Assembly: GCA_009380095.1 (NCBI GenBank)
Contig: WHSL01000039.1
Span: 1-34,366, forward strand
Length of the DNA stretch: 34,366 bases
Source of the DNA: Streptosporangiales bacterium
GTDB taxonomy: Bacteria; Actinomycetota; Actinomycetes; Streptosporangiales; Streptosporangiaceae
Direction of reading: 5' to 3'
The notes under the pieces were generated by a model. That model was not told the DNA's origin. It made no database searches and saw nothing but the letters and a program-made list of their open reading frames with translations. Within the stretch, counting starts at the first letter, position 1. Each line of letters starts with the position of its first letter. Below, in pieces: positions 4,039 to 13,073 of the stretch. The position numbers and the translations under genes were made by a program.

Positions 4039-6429
4039 TTAGGTGGGGTGGCGGCGGAGACGGTTGCGCCAGGTTGTGGGGAGGGTGGTGGCGTGTTCGA
4101 GGGTGTCGTAGCCACGGCCGAGGGTGAGGCCGAGGAAGTCCAGGCTCGAGCGGGGGAAGAGGATCGCGCGCAGGCGGCGGTGGGGCCGTACGGCCGCGCG
4201 CGCCGCCCGGCGGACCTGCGCCACGTCGGCGGCGAGCGCGGGGGCCGGCGCGGGCGCGGGCGCGTAGCGCGCGCGTTCCTCGGCCAGGGCGATCCGCCAC
4301 AGGGCTTCCGCGGCCGAGCCGTCCAGGTGGTAGCGCTCCACGAGTCGCCGCGCAGCACCGCGTGGGCTCTCCGCGCCGCGCCACTCGCCGCCCATGTCCA
4401 CCACGTCGTCCCGCAGCTCCCGCCACGCCGCCCGTGCCAGCTCAGCGTCGCCGCGCGCCCGCGCCCAGCGCCACCGCCGGACCGCGCTGCGCTGCAGCCG
4501 CGGCCAGCACAGCAGCGCCACGATCACCAGGGCCGTCCAGCCGAGCCAGCGGCCCGGCCCCTCGTCCTCGATCGGCCCGACCGTGCCGCCCACGTCCGCG
4601 CCGGCGCCAGGATCCGGACGCTCCGGCCCACCGGGCGCCGCCGTGGCGGTGCTCTCCGGCGAGGTCTCCGACTCGGGGTCGATGGCCTCCGGGCTGGGCC
4701 CGCCGGCGCCGGTGCCCGGGGTGGGCGGCGGCGGGATCGACCAGTCCGGTACGCTCGCCGAGCCCTGCCCGGCGAGCCCGGACGGGGTCGGCTCGAACCT
4801 GACCCAGCCGATGCCGTCGAAGAACAGCTCCGGCCAGGCGTGCGCGTCCCGAGTGGACACCGACCAGGAGCCGTCCGCGGTGCGCGTACCGGAGGTGTAG
4901 CCGACCGCGACCCGCGCCGGGATCCCGGTCATCCGCGCCATCAGCGCCATCGACGCGGCGAACTGCTCGCAGTACCCCGCGCGGGTGCGCAGCAGGAAGT
5001 CCGACAGCGCGGAGGTCCCGTTGCCGCCCGGCACGGTCAGGTCGTAGCGGAACCGCCCGCCCGTGGTGAACCACTCCTGCAGCGCGACGGCCCGCTCGTA
5101 CGGCGACGTCGCGCCCTCGGTGATCTCGGTGGCGAGGCGCTGGATCCGCTGGTCCACCCGCGGCACGTTCAGGTAGCGCCCTGCGCCCTGCGCCCCGGCC
5201 CGCCAGCCCGCCCCCCGGAGCTGCTCCCGGGAGGGCCGGACGTCGAGCACCTGCGCCCGGTACGTGCTGCCCCCCGCCTCCGAACGGGTGGAGAACACCA
5301 TCAGCGTCGGCCCGTGCACCAGCCAGTCCCCGCGGATGTCGATCTCCCGGGTGGGATAGGGCAGCGGCAGGAAGTTCATCCCGGTGACCCGCTCGGAGAT
5401 CTGCGCCTCAACCGAGGCCTGCGGCGCCGCGATGCGCAGCCCCTGCGGCTCCGGCAGCGGCCGGCCGGCCACCCTGTCGTCGCGCCCGCCGCGCACCGTG
5501 GACATCGTCCAGGCCTGCCCGTCGAACGCGTCGAGCACGTTCATCCGCAGGTAGCCGGGGACCTGCATGCCGGTGCGATACCGCATCACCTCCGCGTCCC
5601 GCGGCAGGTTCAGCTGCCGCTTGAGGCTCACGATCGGGTTGGGCGTGGTGATGCTGGTGCCCCCGCCGTCGCCGGGCCCGCCACCGCCGCCGACGCCGAA
5701 CAGCCCGTCGTCCCGGATCCCCGGGATCACCGCGGGCACGACCAGCGCCACCAGCACGGCGGTGAGCCCCAGCCGCCGGCCCATCCCGGCGAAGGCCGAG
5801 GTGTCCACCGCGGGCTCGTTCCGGCGCGGCGTCGCGCCCTCGGCCCGTACGGTGACCGGCCGCCCCCACCGGCCCACCCGCTCCCGCCCGTCGAACGCGA
5901 GCAGCACCAGGAACCCGGCGGCCGCGAGCGCGAACAACGGCCAGCTCAGCTGGTCCCGCAGCACCGCGACCGGCACGCTGAACAGCGCGAGCAGCGGCAG
6001 CCCGGCGAGCGCCGCGCGGCGCATCCGCACCGCGAGGAACTCCACCGCCAGCGCCACCGCGCCCACGCCGAGCGTGGTGACGGTGGTTATGCCCAGGTAC
6101 GGGGGCACCGGCGCGGCGTACCGGTTCACGTCGTACCAGCCGGCCTCCAGCAGCACGCCGAGGCGCGTCACCGACTCCGGCGTGGGGATCAGTGCGAGGA
6201 TCGCCTCGTCCGAGGTGAACGTGACGGTCATGAAGACCAGCAGCGCCAGCAGCGCGGGCAGCGGCTCGGCCCAGCCCGGTACGGACAGCCGCCGGCCCAG
6301 CGCCGCCCCGCCGATGGTGGCGGCCGCGGCCAGCGCGGCGGGCACGAACCAGCCCCCGCTCTCGAACAGCGGGTGCAGCAGCAGCGCGGCACAGACGGTG
6401 GCGATCAGCGCCCCGGCACTCAGTCGCAT
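4039..6429 (-). CDS. Membrane transglutaminase-like protein (DUF3488-transglutaminase-DUF4129, TgpA-like)
   Basis: A 796-residue membrane protein. The N-terminal third has about seven hydrophobic helices (roughly residues 5-20, 28-45, 57-72, 112-135, 140-157, 162-179, 220-236), typical of DUF3488. An extracytoplasmic transglutaminase core follows, with C487 in AGYCEQFA and H530 in RDAHAWPE. The third triad position is Glu (E546 in RFEPTP) where the family reference has Asp. A final helix (about residues 630-650) precedes a cytoplasmic DUF4129-like region. It is the last gene of a moxR-DUF58-transglutaminase operon and starts 40 bases after the DUF58 stop. Such operons are thought to act in envelope protein processing or stress; the substrate is unknown. 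Confidence 0.9.
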   Translation of the reverse strand: MRLSAGALIATVCAALLLHPLFESGGWFVPAALAAAATIGGAALGRRLSVPGWAEPLPALLALLVFMTVTFTSDEAILALIPTPESVTRLGVLLEAGWYDVNRYAAPVPPYLGITTVTTLGVGAVALAVEFLAVRMRRAALAGLPLLALFSVPVAVLRDQLSWPLFALAAAGFLVLLAFDGRERVGRWGRPVTVRAEGATPRRNEPAVDTSAFAGMGRRLGLTAVLVALVVPAVIPGIRDDGLFGVGGGGGPGDGGGTSITTPNPIVSLKRQLNLPRDAEVMRYRTGMQVPGYLRMNVLDAFDGQAWTMSTVRGGRDDRVAGRPLPEPQGLRIAAPQASVEAQISERVTGMNFLPLPYPTREIDIRGDWLVHGPTLMVFSTRSEAGGSTYRAQVLDVRPSREQLRGAGWRAGAQGAGRYLNVPRVDQRIQRLATEITEGATSPYERAVALQEWFTTGGRFRYDLTVPGGNGTSALSDFLLRTRAGYCEQFAASMALMARMTGIPARVAVGYTSGTRTADGSWSVSTRDAHAWPELFFDGIGWVRFEPTPSGLAGQGSASVPDWSIPPPPTPGTGAGGPSPEAIDPESETSPESTATAAPGGPERPDPGAGADVGGTVGPIEDEGPGRWLGWTALVIVALLCWPRLQRSAVRRWRWARARGDAELARAAWRELRDDVVDMGGEWRGAESPRGAARRLVERYHLDGSAAEALWRIALAEERARYAPAPAPAPALAADVAQVRRAARAAVRPHRRLRAILFPRSSLDFLGLTLGRGYDTLEHATTLPTTWRNRLRRHPT

Positions 6430-6469: not shown

Positions 6470-7705
6470 TCATCGGCCCACCCCCGTCGTGCGGGAGCGG
6501 GTCACCGGCGCGGCGGCACGCCAAAGCGCGGCGAGGTCGTCGCCCGGCTCCACGGTGAGCACCCGCCAGCCGGCGGCGCGCAGCCGCCTCGCGTTCCGCC
6601 GTACCGCGTCCGCCCGGTTGGCGCGGCCCCACGCCCCCGGGTCCAGCAGCAGCGCCAGCCACGTCCCGGTGCCCCGGTGCGCGCGCGCCAGCCGGTCGGC
6701 CTCCTCGTCGCTCAGGTCGCCGAGCACGGCGACGACGAGCCCGTCGCGGTGCCCGATGGCGTCCACCCCGCGCTGCAGCGAGACCGCGCGGGACGGCCGC
6801 ACCCCGGCGAGCAGGTCGAGCAGCGAGTCCTCGGTGGCGTCGCCCTCGGTGCGGCCCGCGTCGGTGGCGAACCGTACGCCGAAGCCCTCGTGGATCAGGT
6901 GCACCGCCACCGAGGCGGCCGCACTCACCGCGACCTCGAACGACGAGCCCGGCCCCTCACCGGCGTGCGACACCCGCCGGGTGTCCAGCAGCACGCAGCC
7001 GCGGCTGCGCCACTGCTGCTCCTCCCGGCGCACCATCAGCTCGCCGTGCCGCGCGGTGGAGCGCCAGTGCACCCGGCGCAGGTCGTCGCCGTGCCGGTAC
7101 TCCCGCGGCGCCACGTCGTCGTCGCCGGCGGTGGCGAGGCTGCGGGTGCGCCCGTCGCCGCCGCCCGCCCAGTCGCCGTGCAGCCGCACCGGGGGGAGCG
7201 GCACGATCGGCGGCGTGACCACCAGGGTGTCCACGGACTGGAACATCCGGCGCAGCTCCACCAGGCCGAACGGGTCCATGATGCGGATGCCGAGCGGGCC
7301 GATCCGGAACTTGCCGCGCCCGTCGGGGCGGATCCGGTACGCGAGCTCCCGTACGCCCCGCGGCTCCACCCGGTCCAGCACGAAGCGGGGGCGCTCGCCG
7401 AGCACGTACGGCAGCTCCTCCTCGATCAGGATGAGCCCGGACGGCAGCCGGGAGACGTTCTCCATCCCGATCCGTACCTCGGCGGTGTGCCCGGCGGCGA
7501 GCCGGCGCGGGGTCAGCGACCGCGAGCAGGACAGCCGGTACCGGGTGCGGGACACCACCAGGGCGGAGATCAGCGGGAGCGCGACGATCAGCACCGCCAC
7601 CCGCAGCAGGTCGCGCTCGCCGAGCACGAACGCGCAGCCGGCCGTGGTCACGCCGGCGGCGATGAAGCAGCGGCCGCGGGTGGTGAGCACCCGAAGGGAG
7701 TTCAT
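6470..7705 (-). CDS. DUF58 domain protein
   Basis: A 411-residue protein with two N-terminal membrane helices (about 10-27 and 29-47) and a cytoplasmic DUF58 domain, recognised by REYRHGDDLRRVHWRSTARH followed by GELMVRREEQ in the middle of the chain. DUF58 proteins have a von Willebrand A-like fold and are almost always next to a MoxR ATPase and a transglutaminase, as here. They probably act as partners or adaptors in that system. The ATG has a GAGGAG site just upstream, and the gene begins 21 bases after the moxR stop. The biochemical role is not established. Confidence 0.9.
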   Translation of the reverse strand: MNSLRVLTTRGRCFIAAGVTTAGCAFVLGERDLLRVAVLIVALPLISALVVSRTRYRLSCSRSLTPRRLAAGHTAEVRIGMENVSRLPSGLILIEEELPYVLGERPRFVLDRVEPRGVRELAYRIRPDGRGKFRIGPLGIRIMDPFGLVELRRMFQSVDTLVVTPPIVPLPPVRLHGDWAGGGDGRTRSLATAGDDDVAPREYRHGDDLRRVHWRSTARHGELMVRREEQQWRSRGCVLLDTRRVSHAGEGPGSSFEVAVSAAASVAVHLIHEGFGVRFATDAGRTEGDATEDSLLDLLAGVRPSRAVSLQRGVDAIGHRDGLVVAVLGDLSDEEADRLARAHRGTGTWLALLLDPGAWGRANRADAVRRNARRLRAAGWRVLTVEPGDDLAALWRAAAPVTRSRTTGVGR

Positions 7706-7726: not shown

Positions 7727-8707
7727 CTACCGGCCGGAACGGCCCTGTACCGGGACGCGGTTCAGCAGATCCGTCACCACCTGTTCCGGGAGTCGGCGTT
7801 CCACCTGGGCCTCGGCCGTCGGCAGCAGCCGGTGCGCGAGCACGGGAACGGCGAGCTCCTGTACGTCGTCGGGGACGACGTAGTCGCGGTCGTGCAGCGC
7901 GGCCCAGGCCCGGGAGGCGCGGACGAGCTGCAGCGTGGCCCGGGGCGAGGCGCCGAGCCGCAGCTCGGGCGCGCTCCGGGTGGCGGAGGTCAGGTCGATC
8001 ACATAGCGCCGTACGGCGTCGGAGACGTGCACGCTCCGCACCACATCGGTCAGCGCCCGCACGTCGGCGGCGGTCGCGACGGGTTCCAGCTTGTCGAGCG
8101 GGGACGTCGTGCCGTGCACGTCGAGCATCTCCAGCTCCGCGCTCGGCTCGGGATACCCCATGGAGATGCGCGCGGTGAACCTGTCCCGCTGCGCCTCGGG
8201 CAGCGGGTACGTGCCCTCCATCTCCACCGGGTTCTGGGTGGCGATCACCATGAACGGCGCCTCCAGCTCGAAGGTGGTGCCGTCCACCGTGACCTGCCGT
8301 TCCTCCATGCACTCCAGCAGCGCGGACTGGGTCTTCGGGGAGGCGCGGTTGATCTCGTCACCGACCACGATGTTGGCGAAGACCGGGCCGGGCTTGAACT
8401 CGAACTCGCGGACCTCGGCGTTGAACGCGCTGACCCCCGTGATGTCGCTGGGCAATAGGTCGGGGGTGAACTGCACCCGCCGTACGGAGCAGTCGACGGA
8501 CCTGGCCAGCGACTTGGCCAGCATGGTCTTGCCGACCCCCGGCACGTCCTCGATCAGCAGGTGGCCCTCCGCGAGCAGCACGGTCAGGGCGAGCCGGACG
8601 ACCTCCGGTTTGCCCTCGATGACCGATTCAATGGCGCTCCGGATACGGCTTGCCGTCCCGATCAGGTCGTTCAGATCACTTGCGGCATCGCGCGTGTCCA
8701 ATGACAC
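7727..8707 (-). CDS. MoxR-family AAA+ ATPase
   Basis: A 326-residue ATPase thought to remodel or activate partner proteins. Walker A is DVPGVGKT (residues 54-61), Walker B with sensor context is VVGDEINRASPKTQSALLE, and an AAA lid domain makes up the C-terminal third. GTG at 8707 is chosen because a near-perfect ribosome site (AAGGAGG, 8718-8712) lies 4-5 bases upstream. In-frame starts further upstream (8734, 8782) would add residues unlike the family. It is the first gene of the operon with DUF58 and the transglutaminase-like gene. No convincing promoter was found in the 286 bases upstream. Confidence 0.9.
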   Translation of the reverse strand: MSLDTRDAASDLNDLIGTASRIRSAIESVIEGKPEVVRLALTVLLAEGHLLIEDVPGVGKTMLAKSLARSVDCSVRRVQFTPDLLPSDITGVSAFNAEVREFEFKPGPVFANIVVGDEINRASPKTQSALLECMEERQVTVDGTTFELEAPFMVIATQNPVEMEGTYPLPEAQRDRFTARISMGYPEPSAELEMLDVHGTTSPLDKLEPVATAADVRALTDVVRSVHVSDAVRRYVIDLTSATRSAPELRLGASPRATLQLVRASRAWAALHDRDYVVPDDVQELAVPVLAHRLLPTAEAQVERRLPEQVVTDLLNRVPVQGRSGR

Positions 8708-8964
8708 GGGCCCTCCTTGAGCAGCCGTATCCATCGTCGAGACCACGGTCCCTCGCCGTCGCGGGTTCGAGTCCGGTATCAATCATGTCCTGTCGCCTCA
8801 CGGGCGGCATTTCCTGACGGTCGCAACGACGGGGAAGTACGGTCCGTTTCGTCGTTTATCGACAGTACGTCGTCAACCTGCCCCGGCGCGACGTTCCGTG
8901 TCCAGGCCAGTCAGCCGCAACCGGCCGCCGCTTCCGGGCGGGTTTTTACACCGATTTACGCCCG

Positions 8965-9020
8965 GACCGTCTCACCGGCGGGCGGCGACGTGTTCACGCC
9001 GAGACCGTCTCGCCGGCGGG
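8965..9020. repeat. 18-bp direct repeat duplicating the MFS gene end
   Basis: GACCGTCTC(A/G)CCGGCGGG occurs at 8965-8982 and 9003-9020, 38 bases apart. The right copy encodes the last residues of the transporter (PAGETVSA) and the left copy lies just beyond its stop, encoding PAGETVRA in another frame. This looks like a local duplication. The rest of the 8708-8993 interval contains nothing else recognised. Confidence 0.6.
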
Positions 9021-10244
9021 TTCCGGCGTGCGGATGCGGGCACGCCGCCAGGCGTACGCGGCGAACAGCCCCAGCGTGACGCCGAGCGCCCCGGCGACGG
9101 CCACCGTACGGGCCGCGCCGATGCCCTCCGCGAGCAGCCCGCCGAGCAGGATGCCCAGCCCCTGCACCGCGACGAGCCCCGAGGCGACGAGGCCGCCGGC
9201 CTGCCCGCGGCTGGTGTCGGGCACCGTCCGCATGAACGCCGCGTTCGCCGCCACCTGGTACGCGGAGAAGACCCCCACCGCCGCCCACAGCAGCGTGGAC
9301 ACCCCCACGCTGGGCCGCAGCGCGCAGAACACCAGCGGCAGGCTGGTCAGCACCGCCATCGGCCCCATCAGCCGCCCCCGCCACTCCGGCGGGACGAGCC
9401 GGGTGAACAAGGCGACGCCGATCAGGCTGCCGGCCGGCGCGGTGGCCATCAGGAACCCCACGGTGACCGGCGACCCGCCCAGCTCGGCGGCGTACGGCGC
9501 CGCCAGCCCGAGCGGCACCGCGTAGCAGCCGGCCAGCCAGGCCAGGGCGGCGAGACTGCGCAGCCGGGGGGAGCGTGTGATCAGCGCGACCCCCTGTCCG
9601 AGCGAGGCCCACATCGCGCCGGGCGTGGCGGCGCCGTCCCGCGGGGCCGGGCGCGGCCGTACGCCCACGGCCTCGATCGCCGCGGCGAACAGGAACGTCG
9701 CCGCGTTCACCACGAGCGCCAGGTACGGGCCGATGGCCTGCACCACGATGCCGCCCGCGGCGAACCCGCCGAGCACCGCGGACTGCCGGGTCATGTGCCC
9801 GATGGCCTGGCCGGCGACGTACCTGTCGCCGAGCAGGATCTGCGGGAGCAGCGCCATCCGCGCGGCCTTGGCCGGCGCGTCGGCGAGCTGGACGAGGAAG
9901 ACGAGGACGCAGAGCAGCGCCAGCGGGGTGCCGGGCAGCGCCGCGAGGGCGACCATACCCGCCTGCAGCAGCTGGCAGGTGATCATGACGCGGCGGCGGG
10001 GCAGCCGGTCGGCGAGCCCGCTCAGCAGGGTGCCGCCGAGCAGCGAGGGCAGCAGGGTGAGCGCGTACGTGAGGGCGGTGAGCACGGCGGACGACGTGCG
10101 CTGGTAGACCAGCACGGCGAGCGCGACCCGGGCCAGCTGGTCGCCGACCTCCGAGAGCAGGTCGGCCGACCACAGGGCACGGAACTCGGCCACGCCGAAC
10201 GTGTCGCGAAAGGTCGCGGGCCGTACGTGCCTCTCACGTCTCAA
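8994..10244 (-). CDS. Major facilitator superfamily transporter
   Basis: A roughly 416-residue integral membrane protein with about twelve hydrophobic helices and the MFS loop signature GLADRLPRRRVM between helices 2 and 3. The N-terminal FRDTFGVAEFRALWSADLLS pattern resembles actinobacterial exporters of the EntS/multidrug type. The cargo cannot be told from sequence. TTG at 10244 is preferred because GAGGGG precedes it at a usable distance. An in-frame GTG at 10301 would add 19 residues but has no ribosome site. The gene stands alone on the - strand between the moxR operon and the 10.3-10.9 kb gap. Confidence 0.85.
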   Translation of the reverse strand: MRRERHVRPATFRDTFGVAEFRALWSADLLSEVGDQLARVALAVLVYQRTSSAVLTALTYALTLLPSLLGGTLLSGLADRLPRRRVMITCQLLQAGMVALAALPGTPLALLCVLVFLVQLADAPAKAARMALLPQILLGDRYVAGQAIGHMTRQSAVLGGFAAGGIVVQAIGPYLALVVNAATFLFAAAIEAVGVRPRPAPRDGAATPGAMWASLGQGVALITRSPRLRSLAALAWLAGCYAVPLGLAAPYAAELGGSPVTVGFLMATAPAGSLIGVALFTRLVPPEWRGRLMGPMAVLTSLPLVFCALRPSVGVSTLLWAAVGVFSAYQVAANAAFMRTVPDTSRGQAGGLVASGLVAVQGLGILLGGLLAEGIGAARTVAVAGALGVTLGLFAAYAWRRARIRTPEPAGETVSA

Positions 10245-10707
10245 GGTCGCCGTCCCCTCATCGCTCCCATGGCACGGCCGTCGAGTATTCACCGTAACCA
10301 CGTGTGCGCGGACCGCCCAGGGGAGTGGGCGGAAGAGGACGGTTTCCGGCCCTCACGGAACGGGCCGGCGCCATTCGCGGCGCCGGGCTGAGGTGGTCGT
10401 GCCGCCTCTTCCCATTGGCTGACCTGGTCGTTCGGCGAGCCCTCGACGAGGTGGGGGTTGTGCTGCGGACTTGCGCGGATTCGCTTATCAAACCGTTTTC
10501 ATTGACCACATGTGGCCCACCGATGGCATTCAATCACAAATTGCCGGATCCATGCTGGTAAATGGTGGTAAGTCCATTTGCCCGGGTCGCGCGGCCCCCC
10601 GACCGGGCCCTATGGGGTGCCTGTCCCTCGCTCTACGCTCGAAACGTATCCCGCCCACCGGAGGGATCGGGTTGGATCACCGAACAGGAGAAGGTGGGGC
10701 CCCGCAC

Positions 10708-10954: not shown

Positions 10955-12316
10955 TTACTTGATCACCTTCTTGTTCATGAACTCCTCGATGCCGAGCGGG
11001 CCCAGCTCGCGCCCCACGCCGGACCGCTTCACCCCGCCGAACGGCAGGTCGGCCTGAGAGCCGCCGGCCTGGTTGATGAAGACCATGCCGGCCTCGATCC
11101 GCTCACCGACCCGGCGTGCCCGCTCCGGGTCGGCGCTGAACACGCCGGAGCCCAGCCCGAACGGCGTGTCGTTGGCCAGCTCGACCGCCTCGTCCTCGGA
11201 CTCGGCCTTGAACACCATGGCCACCGGCCCGAACAGCTCCTCGGCGTACGCCCTGGTCCCGGGCTCGACCCCGGTGAGCACGGTGGGCTCCACGTACGCC
11301 CCCGGCCCCTCGATCCGCCGCCCGCCGGCCCGTACCGTCGCGCCCTGCGCCACCGCGGCGTCGATCTGCTCGATCAGCCGGTCGGCGGCGCCCTGGGAGG
11401 AGAGCGGCGCCAGCGTGGTCGCAGGGTCGGCGGGGTCGCCCGGGGTGAACCCCTGGAAGCTCGCCACCAGCTTGTCCACGAACGCGTCGTGGATGTCCGA
11501 CATGACGATCATCCGCTTCGGCGCGTTGCAGGCCTGCCCGGTGTTGCCGAGCCGTGAGCGGGTCGCGATCTTGACCATCCGGTCGATGTCCGCCGTGTCC
11601 AGGATGATCATCGGGTCCGAGCCGCCGAGCTCCAGCACCACCTTCTTGAGGTGCTTGCCGGCCTCCGCGGCCACCGCCGCACCGGCCCGCTCGCTGCCGG
11701 TCAGCGACACGCCCTGCACCCGCGGGTCGGCGATGATGTCCGCCACCTGCTCGTTGGTGGCGTACACGTTGATGTACGCGTCCGCCGGCAGCCCCGCGTC
11801 GCGCAACAGCGCCTCGATCGCGGCGGACGAGCGTGGGCAGCTCGGCGCGTGCTTGAGCAGGATGGTGTTGCCGAGCACCAGGTTCGGCGCGGCGAATCGG
11901 GCCACCTGGTAGTAGGGGAAGTTCCACGGCATGATGCCGAGCAGCACGCCGATCGGGCTCTTGCGGATGGTCGCCTCGCCGCCCCGGATCGGCAGCGCCT
12001 CGTCCGCCAGCAGCTTCTCGGCGTTGTCGGCGTAGTAGGAGAAGATGTCCACCACGATGCCGAGCTCGCCCTTGCTCTCCGCGATCCGCTTGCCCATCTC
12101 CGTGGTGATGATCGCGGCCAGCTCGTCGGCCCGCTCCGCGAACAGCTCCGCCGCGCGCTTCACGAGCGCCGCCCGCTCGGCCACCGGGCGCTCCCGCCAC
12201 GCCAGATAGCCCTGGTGTGCGCGGTCGATAGCGCCGGTGATCTCCGCGTCGGTGGCGGTCGGGAACTCCTCCAGGACCTCGCCGGTGGCCGGATTCGTGA
12301 CCTTGTACATGCTCAT
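10955..12316 (-). CDS. NAD(P)-dependent aldehyde dehydrogenase, succinate-semialdehyde type
   Basis: A 453-residue aldehyde dehydrogenase oxidising an aldehyde to the acid with NAD(P)+. The general base E229 lies in [10 protein letters not shown] and the catalytic cysteine C263 in [11 protein letters not shown]; the 34-residue spacing is the family standard. The cofactor-site MPWNFPYYQ and the C-terminal [14 protein letters not shown] are present. The short length and sequence style suit the GabD1-like succinate-semialdehyde group, but the substrate is inferred. ATG 12316 ([14 protein letters not shown]) matches the family start, although an open frame extends further upstream. It is divergent from mraZ, and its leader carries GTGG(A/G)G boxes like those of mraZ. 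Confidence 0.9.
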
Positions 12317-12338
12317 GCCCCCATGCTCCCCGGCGCGC

Positions 12339-12391
12339 CTCCACTTTGCTCCACCGGGGCCCTCCACCACGCCCCACCCCGGGCCCTCCAC
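12339..12391 (-). promoter_or_regulatory. MraZ-box-like repeats upstream of the aldehyde dehydrogenase
   Basis: On the - strand five GTGG(A/G)G hexamers lie 23 to 75 bases before the aldehyde dehydrogenase ATG: GTGGAG (12391-12386), GTGGGG (12377-12372), GTGGAG (12367-12362), GTGGAG (12354-12349) and GTGGAG (12344-12339). The second and third, and the fourth and fifth, are each 10 bases apart with 4-base spacers, as in the mraZ operator. MraZ binding is an inference from this likeness. Confidence 0.45.
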
Positions 12392-12399
12392 CCAGCTCC

Positions 12400-12424
12400 A
12401 ACCACGCGTTACGCGGCACGTTCC
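12400..12424 (-). promoter_or_regulatory. Possible ECF-sigma-type promoter for the aldehyde dehydrogenase
   Basis: On the - strand GGAAC (12424-12420), a 16-base spacer and GGTT (12403-12400) resemble the GGAAC-N15/16-CGTT pattern used by SigE-like ECF factors of actinomycetes. Transcription would begin just before the GTGG(A/G)G boxes. The match is imperfect. Confidence 0.25.
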
Positions 12425-12559
12425 GGTGGTTTCCCGGGGGTCTGGATGGCCGTTACAGGCCCGTACGGACGTGGCGCCGCTCACTCCCTCCACTTCACCC
12501 TACCGCCGCTGAGCTGGGCTAATGCGAGCTCGTAGCCCAGATCGGGTGGTATTGAACTG

Positions 12560-12587
12560 TTGACCGTGGGGAAGAGTGGAGTACAGT
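12560..12587 (+). promoter_or_regulatory. Promoter of mraZ / dcw cluster
   Basis: TTGACC (12560-12565), a 16-base spacer and TACAGT (12582-12587) form a good vegetative-type promoter. The spacer and -10 contain the first three MraZ boxes, so binding there would block polymerase. The start of transcription would be near 12594, about 50 bases before the mraZ ATG. Confidence 0.6.
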
Positions 12588-12601
12588 GGGGCGCCGTGGA
12601 G
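12566..12601 (+). promoter_or_regulatory. MraZ operator: four GTGG(A/G)G boxes in 10-bp phase
   Basis: GTGGGG (12566), GTGGAG (12576), GTGGGG (12586) and GTGGAG (12596) recur every 10 bases with 4-base spacers. A fifth possible half-box, GTGGTA at 12546, is in the same phase. MraZ proteins of other bacteria bind short direct repeats of TGGG type with about 10-bp spacing upstream of their own gene, so autoregulation is expected. Confidence 0.75.
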
Positions 12602-12641
12602 GGCTGTAGAGCGCTCCACACGGCACGGGGAGGTGGGGCCG

Positions 12642-13073
12642 ATGTTTCTCGGCACCCATTCGCCGCGCCTCGACGACAAGGGACGTCTGTTCCTTCCAGC
12701 CAAGTACCGCGACGAGTTGTCGGGGGGACTGGTGATCACGAAGGGCCAGGAGCGCTGCCTCTACGTCTTCCCCGTGGAGGAGTTCCAGCGGCTCACCGAG
12801 GCCCTGCGCTCGGCACCGGTCACGGCCAAGGCGGTCCGTGACTACAGCCGGGTGTTCTTCGCCAGCGCCTCCGACGAGGTGCCTGACAAGCAGGGGCGGG
12901 TCACCATCCCGCCCGCGCTCCGCCAGTACGCGGGCCTGTCCCGCGACTGCGTGGTGATCGGCGCCAACACACGCCTGGAGATCTGGGACTCCGAGTCGTG
13001 GTCGCGGTACGAGGCCGAGCAGGAGCAGAAGTTCTCGGATCTTTCCGAGGAGGTGTTGCCGGGGGTCCTGTGA
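12642..13073 (+). CDS. mraZ: Transcriptional regulator MraZ
   Basis: A 143-residue DNA-binding protein that regulates the dcw cluster, normally as a ring-shaped oligomer. Two SpoVT/AbrB-type half-domains are visible: [19 protein letters not shown] near residues 8-26 and [20 protein letters not shown] in the second half. ATG 12642 ([15 protein letters not shown]) is the family start and has GGGGAGG (12627-12633). An in-frame upstream ATG at 12576 overlaps the operator and is not likely used. It is the first gene of the dcw cluster, and its promoter contains four phased boxes. The C-terminus (EEVLPGVL) is typical of actinobacterial MraZ. Confidence 0.95.

Follow-up and report, generated by a model that had tools for sequence, protein, structure and literature searches.

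The division cluster of many bacteria is headed by the widespread regulator MraZ, and in E. coli the MraZ boxes lie at the mraZ/dcw promoter. In other well-known systems (lac, gal and araC), auxiliary operators act through protein bridging or DNA looping. For Burkholderia cenocepacia, the accessible part of one report describes an mraZ region with four 7-base repeats and 3-base spacers downstream of the −10 element, and presents MraZ as a toroid of eight subunits that recognises GTG-type repeats (PMC7761207). In the same text, binding by MraZ was seen on the promoter half of the mraZ region and not on the upstream half, so upstream operators are not general. The available portion of another report gives the direct repeats of Mollicutes as AAAGTG[T/G] (PMC8475190), and in Dietzia, according to the accessible text, mraZ is controlled by MtrA (PMC9602371). 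Recent MraZ entries in the Protein Data Bank (9qlr, 9sx6 and 9qlg) may help on geometry.

In the searchable literature, accounts of MraZ sites deal mainly with a single short array at the regulator's own promoter. MraZ boxes in that position are already known; the inverted upstream array described here is apparently new in the same literature. We found no open-licence description of inverted upstream MraZ boxes in actinomycetes or of a link between MraZ and moxR (subscription reports may hold one), and no open-licence data on MraZ binding to such boxes in an actinomycete.

The window, that is, the whole stretch of 34,366 nucleotides that was analysed, carries the features collected in Table 1. 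The mraZ promoter was the sole sigma70-like promoter found in 12280-12680. Array A starts directly after TTGACC, overlaps the −10 hexamer TACAGT with its third box and runs beyond it; it consists of direct GTG-type repeats in 10-bp steps at the mraZ promoter, as expected of an MraZ operator. Our family set comprised 80 mraZ loci. Together with the window these make 81 loci. In 79 of them, array A is matched at no fewer than 22 of its 24 positions, and counts made after array alignment omit the other two (L060 and L084). Each base of TTGAC is kept in 78 of the 79 aligned loci.

On the opposite strand, in the leader of a divergent aldehyde dehydrogenase (ALDH) gene, the first-pass annotation had reported five GTGG(A/G)G hexamers, with two pairs sharing the 10-bp step and 4-base spacer of the mraZ promoter boxes. 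Both statements are borne out by the sequence. Five exact GTGGRG hexamers lie within 12339-12391 on the minus strand, the steps between them measuring 10, 13, 10 and 14 bp; two pairs have the stated step and spacer. A sixth, degenerate box (TTGGAG) adds a third pair, matched at 11 of 12 positions, and the resulting pairs C are spaced 23 and 24 bp. These boxes have the hexamer and 10-bp step of array A, occur above chance and are partially kept upstream of mraZ in relatives. The window also holds pair B, which is additional to the boxes reported earlier. On the mraZ side of pair B, at 12504-12520, the window has a degenerate form of the consensus TGACCTGCG, which adjoins B in the 62 loci that carry B and is also present in several B-A pattern matches outside the family.

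Table 1. Features of the mraZ region, in positions of the window
Feature	Position	Strand	Remarks
TgpA-type transglutaminase	4039..6429	-	downstream of DUF58
DUF58 protein	6470..7705	-	downstream of moxR
moxR-type AAA ATPase	7727..8707	-	Pfam AAA_3; read as ancestral divergent neighbour of mraZ in the family
MFS transporter	8994..10301	-	second gene between mraZ and moxR; start uncertain
Aldehyde dehydrogenase (ALDH)	10955..12316	-	PF00171; start ATG 12316 or 12310; read as inserted gene
Exact boxes	12339-12344, 12349-12354, 12362-12367, 12372-12377, 12386-12391	-	
Distal operator pair C1 (putative)	12339..12354	-	GTGGAG-caaa-GTGGAG; 227 bp upstream of first promoter box
Distal operator pair C2 (putative)	12362..12377	-	GTGGGG-cgtg-GTGGAG; 23 bp from C1
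Distal operator pair C3 (putative)	12386..12401	-	exact box 12386-12391 and degenerate box 12396-12401; 11/12 positions
Weak ECF-like promoter candidate for ALDH	12400..12424	-	GGAAC (12424-12420)-N17-GTT (12402-12400); by eye
Proximal inverted pair B	12488..12503	-	one exact and one degenerate box; 78 bp upstream of first promoter box
mraZ promoter	12560..12587	+	TTGACC-16-TACAGT
Promoter array A	12566..12601	+	four GTGGRG boxes in 10-bp steps, at 12566, 12576, 12586 and 12596
mraZ	12642..13073	+	next gene rsmH (mraW); division and cell wall cluster

Our preferred reading, to which we give a probability of roughly 0.7, is that the mraZ promoter has an upstream MraZ operator array with the ALDH-side boxes as its distal part, that MraZ binds these boxes, and that ALDH was inserted beside them. 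The array would comprise the four direct boxes of A at the promoter, the inverted pair B about 78 bp upstream and, further out, C, made of one or more inverted pairs, with 10 bp from box to box and usually 22-24 bp from one pair to the next. The earlier proposal that the boxes are putative operators of MraZ type is supported by their genome-wide rarity, their strand polarity and their conservation upstream of mraZ.

Within the family, pair B lies 76-79 bp upstream of A in 62 of 79 loci, window included (11/12 positions). Distal C pairs occur in 22 of 78 loci, again with the window, and 16 of these are exact; one short locus was dropped from this count. The corresponding controls gave 0.83 (0.06 exact) in shuffled sequence and 1 (0 exact) on the plus strand. 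In an enlarged set with 40 more loci, from which the window was left out and one locus dropped, B was present in 94 of 117 and C in 45 of 117 (34 exact). The near pair thus keeps its distance of about 78 bp from the promoter boxes in relatives, and the distal pair sits where the ALDH boxes do. Retention of C varies between genera: it is at the identical place in all five loci read in genus g23 and absent from all five loci read in genus g33. Within genera g65 (L109, L267-L269) and g44 (L088, L271-L273), the distance between the distal pair and the promoter takes several different values, and the pair therefore seems to move or to be rebuilt rapidly.

The same arrangement extends beyond the family. 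The B-A pattern matched 21 of 394 genomes of the class, compared with 0 for the reversed control, and all 21 sites lie at mraZ, 10 of them outside the family. With a further 78 loci obtained by MraZ match (from the best-scoring and listed matches), these 10 form an outside set of 88 mraZ promoters. Three without a recognisable A were dropped, and the 85 anchored loci represent 17 families, with 22 loci from one genus. Of the 85 promoters, 56 carried an exact inverted pair, and these came from 11 of the 17 families; in the controls, exact plus-strand pairs occurred in 4 of 85 and shuffles gave a mean of 0.06 (maximum 1). When the pattern-picked loci were left out, the exact pair was still found in 46 of 75 loci, from 14 of the 31 genera and 8 of the 14 families represented. 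It was not seen in 6 of the 17 outside families. As part of the whole explanation that we prefer, the upstream layout is probably old and widespread in actinomycetes, and not universal. Among the matches listed, 133 of the 138 genera searched have an MraZ match in some genome; in family f18, genus g85, which has large genomes, most genomes have no MraZ match and four have a weak single one (among the matches listed).

In the outside set, mraZ is often preceded by a co-directional DUF3040 gene, and 28 of 36 loci with this arrangement have the exact inverted pair (20 of the 28 in one genus), as do 18 of 32 where moxR is divergent and 10 of 17 where neither gene was found. Without the pre-picked loci, the figures are 27 of 35 for co-directional DUF3040 and 12 of 26 for divergent moxR. 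Where the upstream gene is co-directional, the exact inverted pair cannot serve a divergent gene, and since the pair is present with or without such a gene, it most simply serves mraZ.

Within the family, the neighbour comparison covered 78 relatives (L084 and L112 were dropped for too little upstream DNA). In all 78, the first gene upstream of mraZ is divergent and belongs to a single homology group, a MoxR-type ATPase; the window's own moxR is 75% identical to the divergent neighbour of one relative. The mraZ-ALDH gene pair of the window was found in none of the 78 relatives, and ALDH and the MFS gene stand between mraZ and moxR in the window only. We read this as a lineage-specific insertion of ALDH and the MFS gene between the mraZ array and the ancestral divergent moxR; for dating it, the window's genus is represented by one genome in the comparison. 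ALDH itself is rare in the family: with five candidates scored per genome, 2 of the 297 family genomes have it at E ≤ 1e-180, and the second family copy is 78% identical and lies on another contig than mraZ. The best NCBIfam matches of the window's ALDH are succinate-semialdehyde dehydrogenases, below every cut-off (best 25 of 42 matches). The MFS gene was set aside as a pointer to where the insert came from, having relatives of 54% identity at most among 150 family genomes. Upstream of moxR, on the plus strand at about 8858-8872 of the window, we noted an element resembling GACAGTACGTCG, whose loose pattern matches 45 of 77 relatives; it is perhaps a moxR promoter or regulator site, and by eye it stayed with moxR after the insertion.

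The strongest competing explanation takes the boxes as a true MraZ operator of ALDH, perhaps captured from the mraZ array, with MraZ at the transcription start repressing ALDH or tuning it with the division cycle. The position of the boxes is in keeping with this, as 22 bases separate the array from the ALDH start codon at 12316 and the five exact distal boxes of the window are the highest count among the 79 loci compared. An ECF-like promoter candidate also lies just upstream. The first-pass annotation had placed a possible ECF-type promoter directly before the boxes; the best promoter candidate for ALDH, GGAAC-N17-GTT, lies between C and B and is a weak match made by eye. No sigma70-like promoter was found on the ALDH strand in 12280-12680. 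The comparison of homologues also argues against an ALDH operator. A sense pair within 400 bp upstream occurs at 1 of 80 ALDH homologues from other bacteria, mostly actinobacteria, and at the closest family homologue (78% identical) there is no pair. In the DNA compared, neither mraZ nor the MFS gene was found beside any of the 80 homologues. As the boxes do not travel with the gene, we rejected them as an ALDH feature. MraZ control of ALDH, which the earlier annotation had put forward as the function of the boxes, is likewise not supported, given the conservation of the boxes where ALDH is absent, the ALDH homologues without boxes, and the boxes upstream of mraZ with co-directional neighbours in other families. 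We consider this explanation unlikely. Under our preferred reading, MraZ bound at C could well affect ALDH transcription, as a by-product of the insertion.

A different possibility, which we regard as quite improbable, is that the distal boxes evolved for control of the moxR-DUF58-transglutaminase operon, which diverges from mraZ, and so linked genes of the cell envelope to MraZ, and that ALDH later took the place of moxR. Throughout the family moxR is indeed kept as the divergent gene next to mraZ, and the distal pairs lie between the two. However, in the outside set the pairs are at least as frequent with a co-directional gene as with a divergent moxR. In addition, the distance from the distal pair to the moxR promoter element, defined by the loose pattern in 45 of 77 loci, ranges from 67 to 288 bp. 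A tie between the boxes and moxR was dropped, since the distance to the moxR element varies at least as much as the distance to the mraZ promoter and loci with a co-directional neighbour carry the boxes too.

Even less probable, in our assessment, is that not MraZ but some other protein that binds GTGG, or a structure of G-rich DNA, uses the inverted pairs. The assignment of the inverted pairs to MraZ derives from sequence, the DNA is G-rich, and the accessible part of a G-quadruplex study in Staphylococcus aureus often names mraZ (PMC11796246). Against this, the pairs share their hexamer and 10-bp step with array A, and the B-A pattern falls at mraZ only, in every one of the genomes matched. 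Genome G018, which has no mraZ match, also has no phased pair near rsmH, although it is a weak natural control because the whole region differs there. Genome G091 was tried as a further control without mraZ, and no rsmH was found in it either.

Chance has to be considered as GTGG is common in GC-rich DNA. In the 6.09-Mb genome, counting both strands, GTGGRG-N4-GTGGRG has 13 matches, compared with 15 for the reversed control; the genome-wide count is therefore not raised, and the local cluster alone is unusual. Five of the 13 fall in a single 263-bp interval, three of them overlapping at mraZ and two at ALDH, where simple arithmetic from a background of 8 per 6.09 Mb gives about 0.0004 expected. 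With this clustering, a near absence of pairs in shuffles and strong strand polarity, the frequency check that had been called for speaks against a random origin, and chance or low-complexity GC-rich sequence, which the genome-wide count, the shuffles and the opposite-strand control rule out, has a negligible probability. The remaining eight phased pairs lie within ORFs (four) and between ORFs (four); the intergenic ones (G000:C69:2417, C207:5749, C298:19307 and C344:4929) could be further MraZ targets.

The spacing of the boxes follows a rule of its own. Outside the family, steps between minus-strand boxes peak at 10 bp (79 cases), 22-23 bp (43) and 33 bp (14), compared with 4 occurrences of step 10 on the plus strand. 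Among spacings between successive exact pairs, 11 of 23 are 22 or 23 bp, from 6 genera and 4 families. The ALDH-side boxes of the window, with the steps and pair distances given above, closely obey this outside rule.

Distances of the exact C pairs from A in the family also fit a 10.5-bp period, in the phase of B. For 22 genus-collapsed C positions, R was 0.69 (permutation p = 0.0002), and for 11 distinct positions R was 0.76 (p = 0.0003, or 0.0037 allowing any period of 8-14 bp); these tests include the window's own positions, and the pattern was noticed before it was tested. With C pairs matched at 11 of 12 positions, distinct positions gave p = 0.005, and 0.067 over periods of 8-14 bp. Outside the family, phasing was significant with B (p = 0.003) and not without it (p = 0.18-0.19), so we claim helical phasing for the family only and dropped it as a class-wide rule.

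With respect to mechanism, MraZ itself would bind B and C, and these sites would act on the mraZ promoter, perhaps through bridging or looping by the ring-shaped protein. Given that phasing is seen in the family and is not significant outside it when B is left out, bridging or looping by the MraZ ring is favoured yet unproven, and we propose it tentatively, at somewhat less than even odds. The insertion of ALDH and the MFS gene between the array and moxR would have placed the array within the ALDH leader as well, and any effect of MraZ on ALDH would be a side effect of this event. A more speculative extension is that a higher-order MraZ-DNA complex controls the division cluster in many actinomycetes. 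Here, the ring might bind the four direct promoter boxes together with inverted pairs that start 78 bp upstream and reach beyond 300 bp (10-bp pairs, often every 22-23 bp), folding the DNA into a loop or wrap, and the inserted ALDH, captured by the distal array, would be an accidental MraZ target.

If true, an inverted upstream array with its own spacing rule, present across most of the outside families sampled (11 of 17) and with varied neighbours, would mean that four boxes are not the limit for a ring-shaped regulator, and it would give a directly testable operator map. The window represents a natural insertion experiment in which the array has been separated from moxR. It also carries a warning: boxes that adjoin a divergent gene need not regulate that gene.

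Compared with described systems, the locus combines familiar and distinct elements. Dietzia offers another regulator at an actinobacterial mraZ promoter; MtrA is a different protein, and the accessible text describes neither MraZ boxes nor an upstream array (PMC9602371). Array A resembles the MraZ boxes of the mraZ/dcw promoter, as far as the available descriptions go, in having four direct GTG-type repeats in 10-bp steps. The boxes reported for B. cenocepacia lie downstream of the −10 element, whereas array A begins right after the −35 element and spans the −10. In the accessible account of that species the upstream half was unbound, whereas here the inverted pairs B and C occur from about 78 bp upstream out to 320-340 bp, where the scan ended. 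In contrast to lac, gal and araC, looping here is something that we infer, and positions outside the family without B are not significantly phased; each site is a short tandem pair, and the protein that reads it probably forms a ring. The likeness to these operators lies in secondary sites that are distant from the promoter and, within the family, placed at helical spacing.
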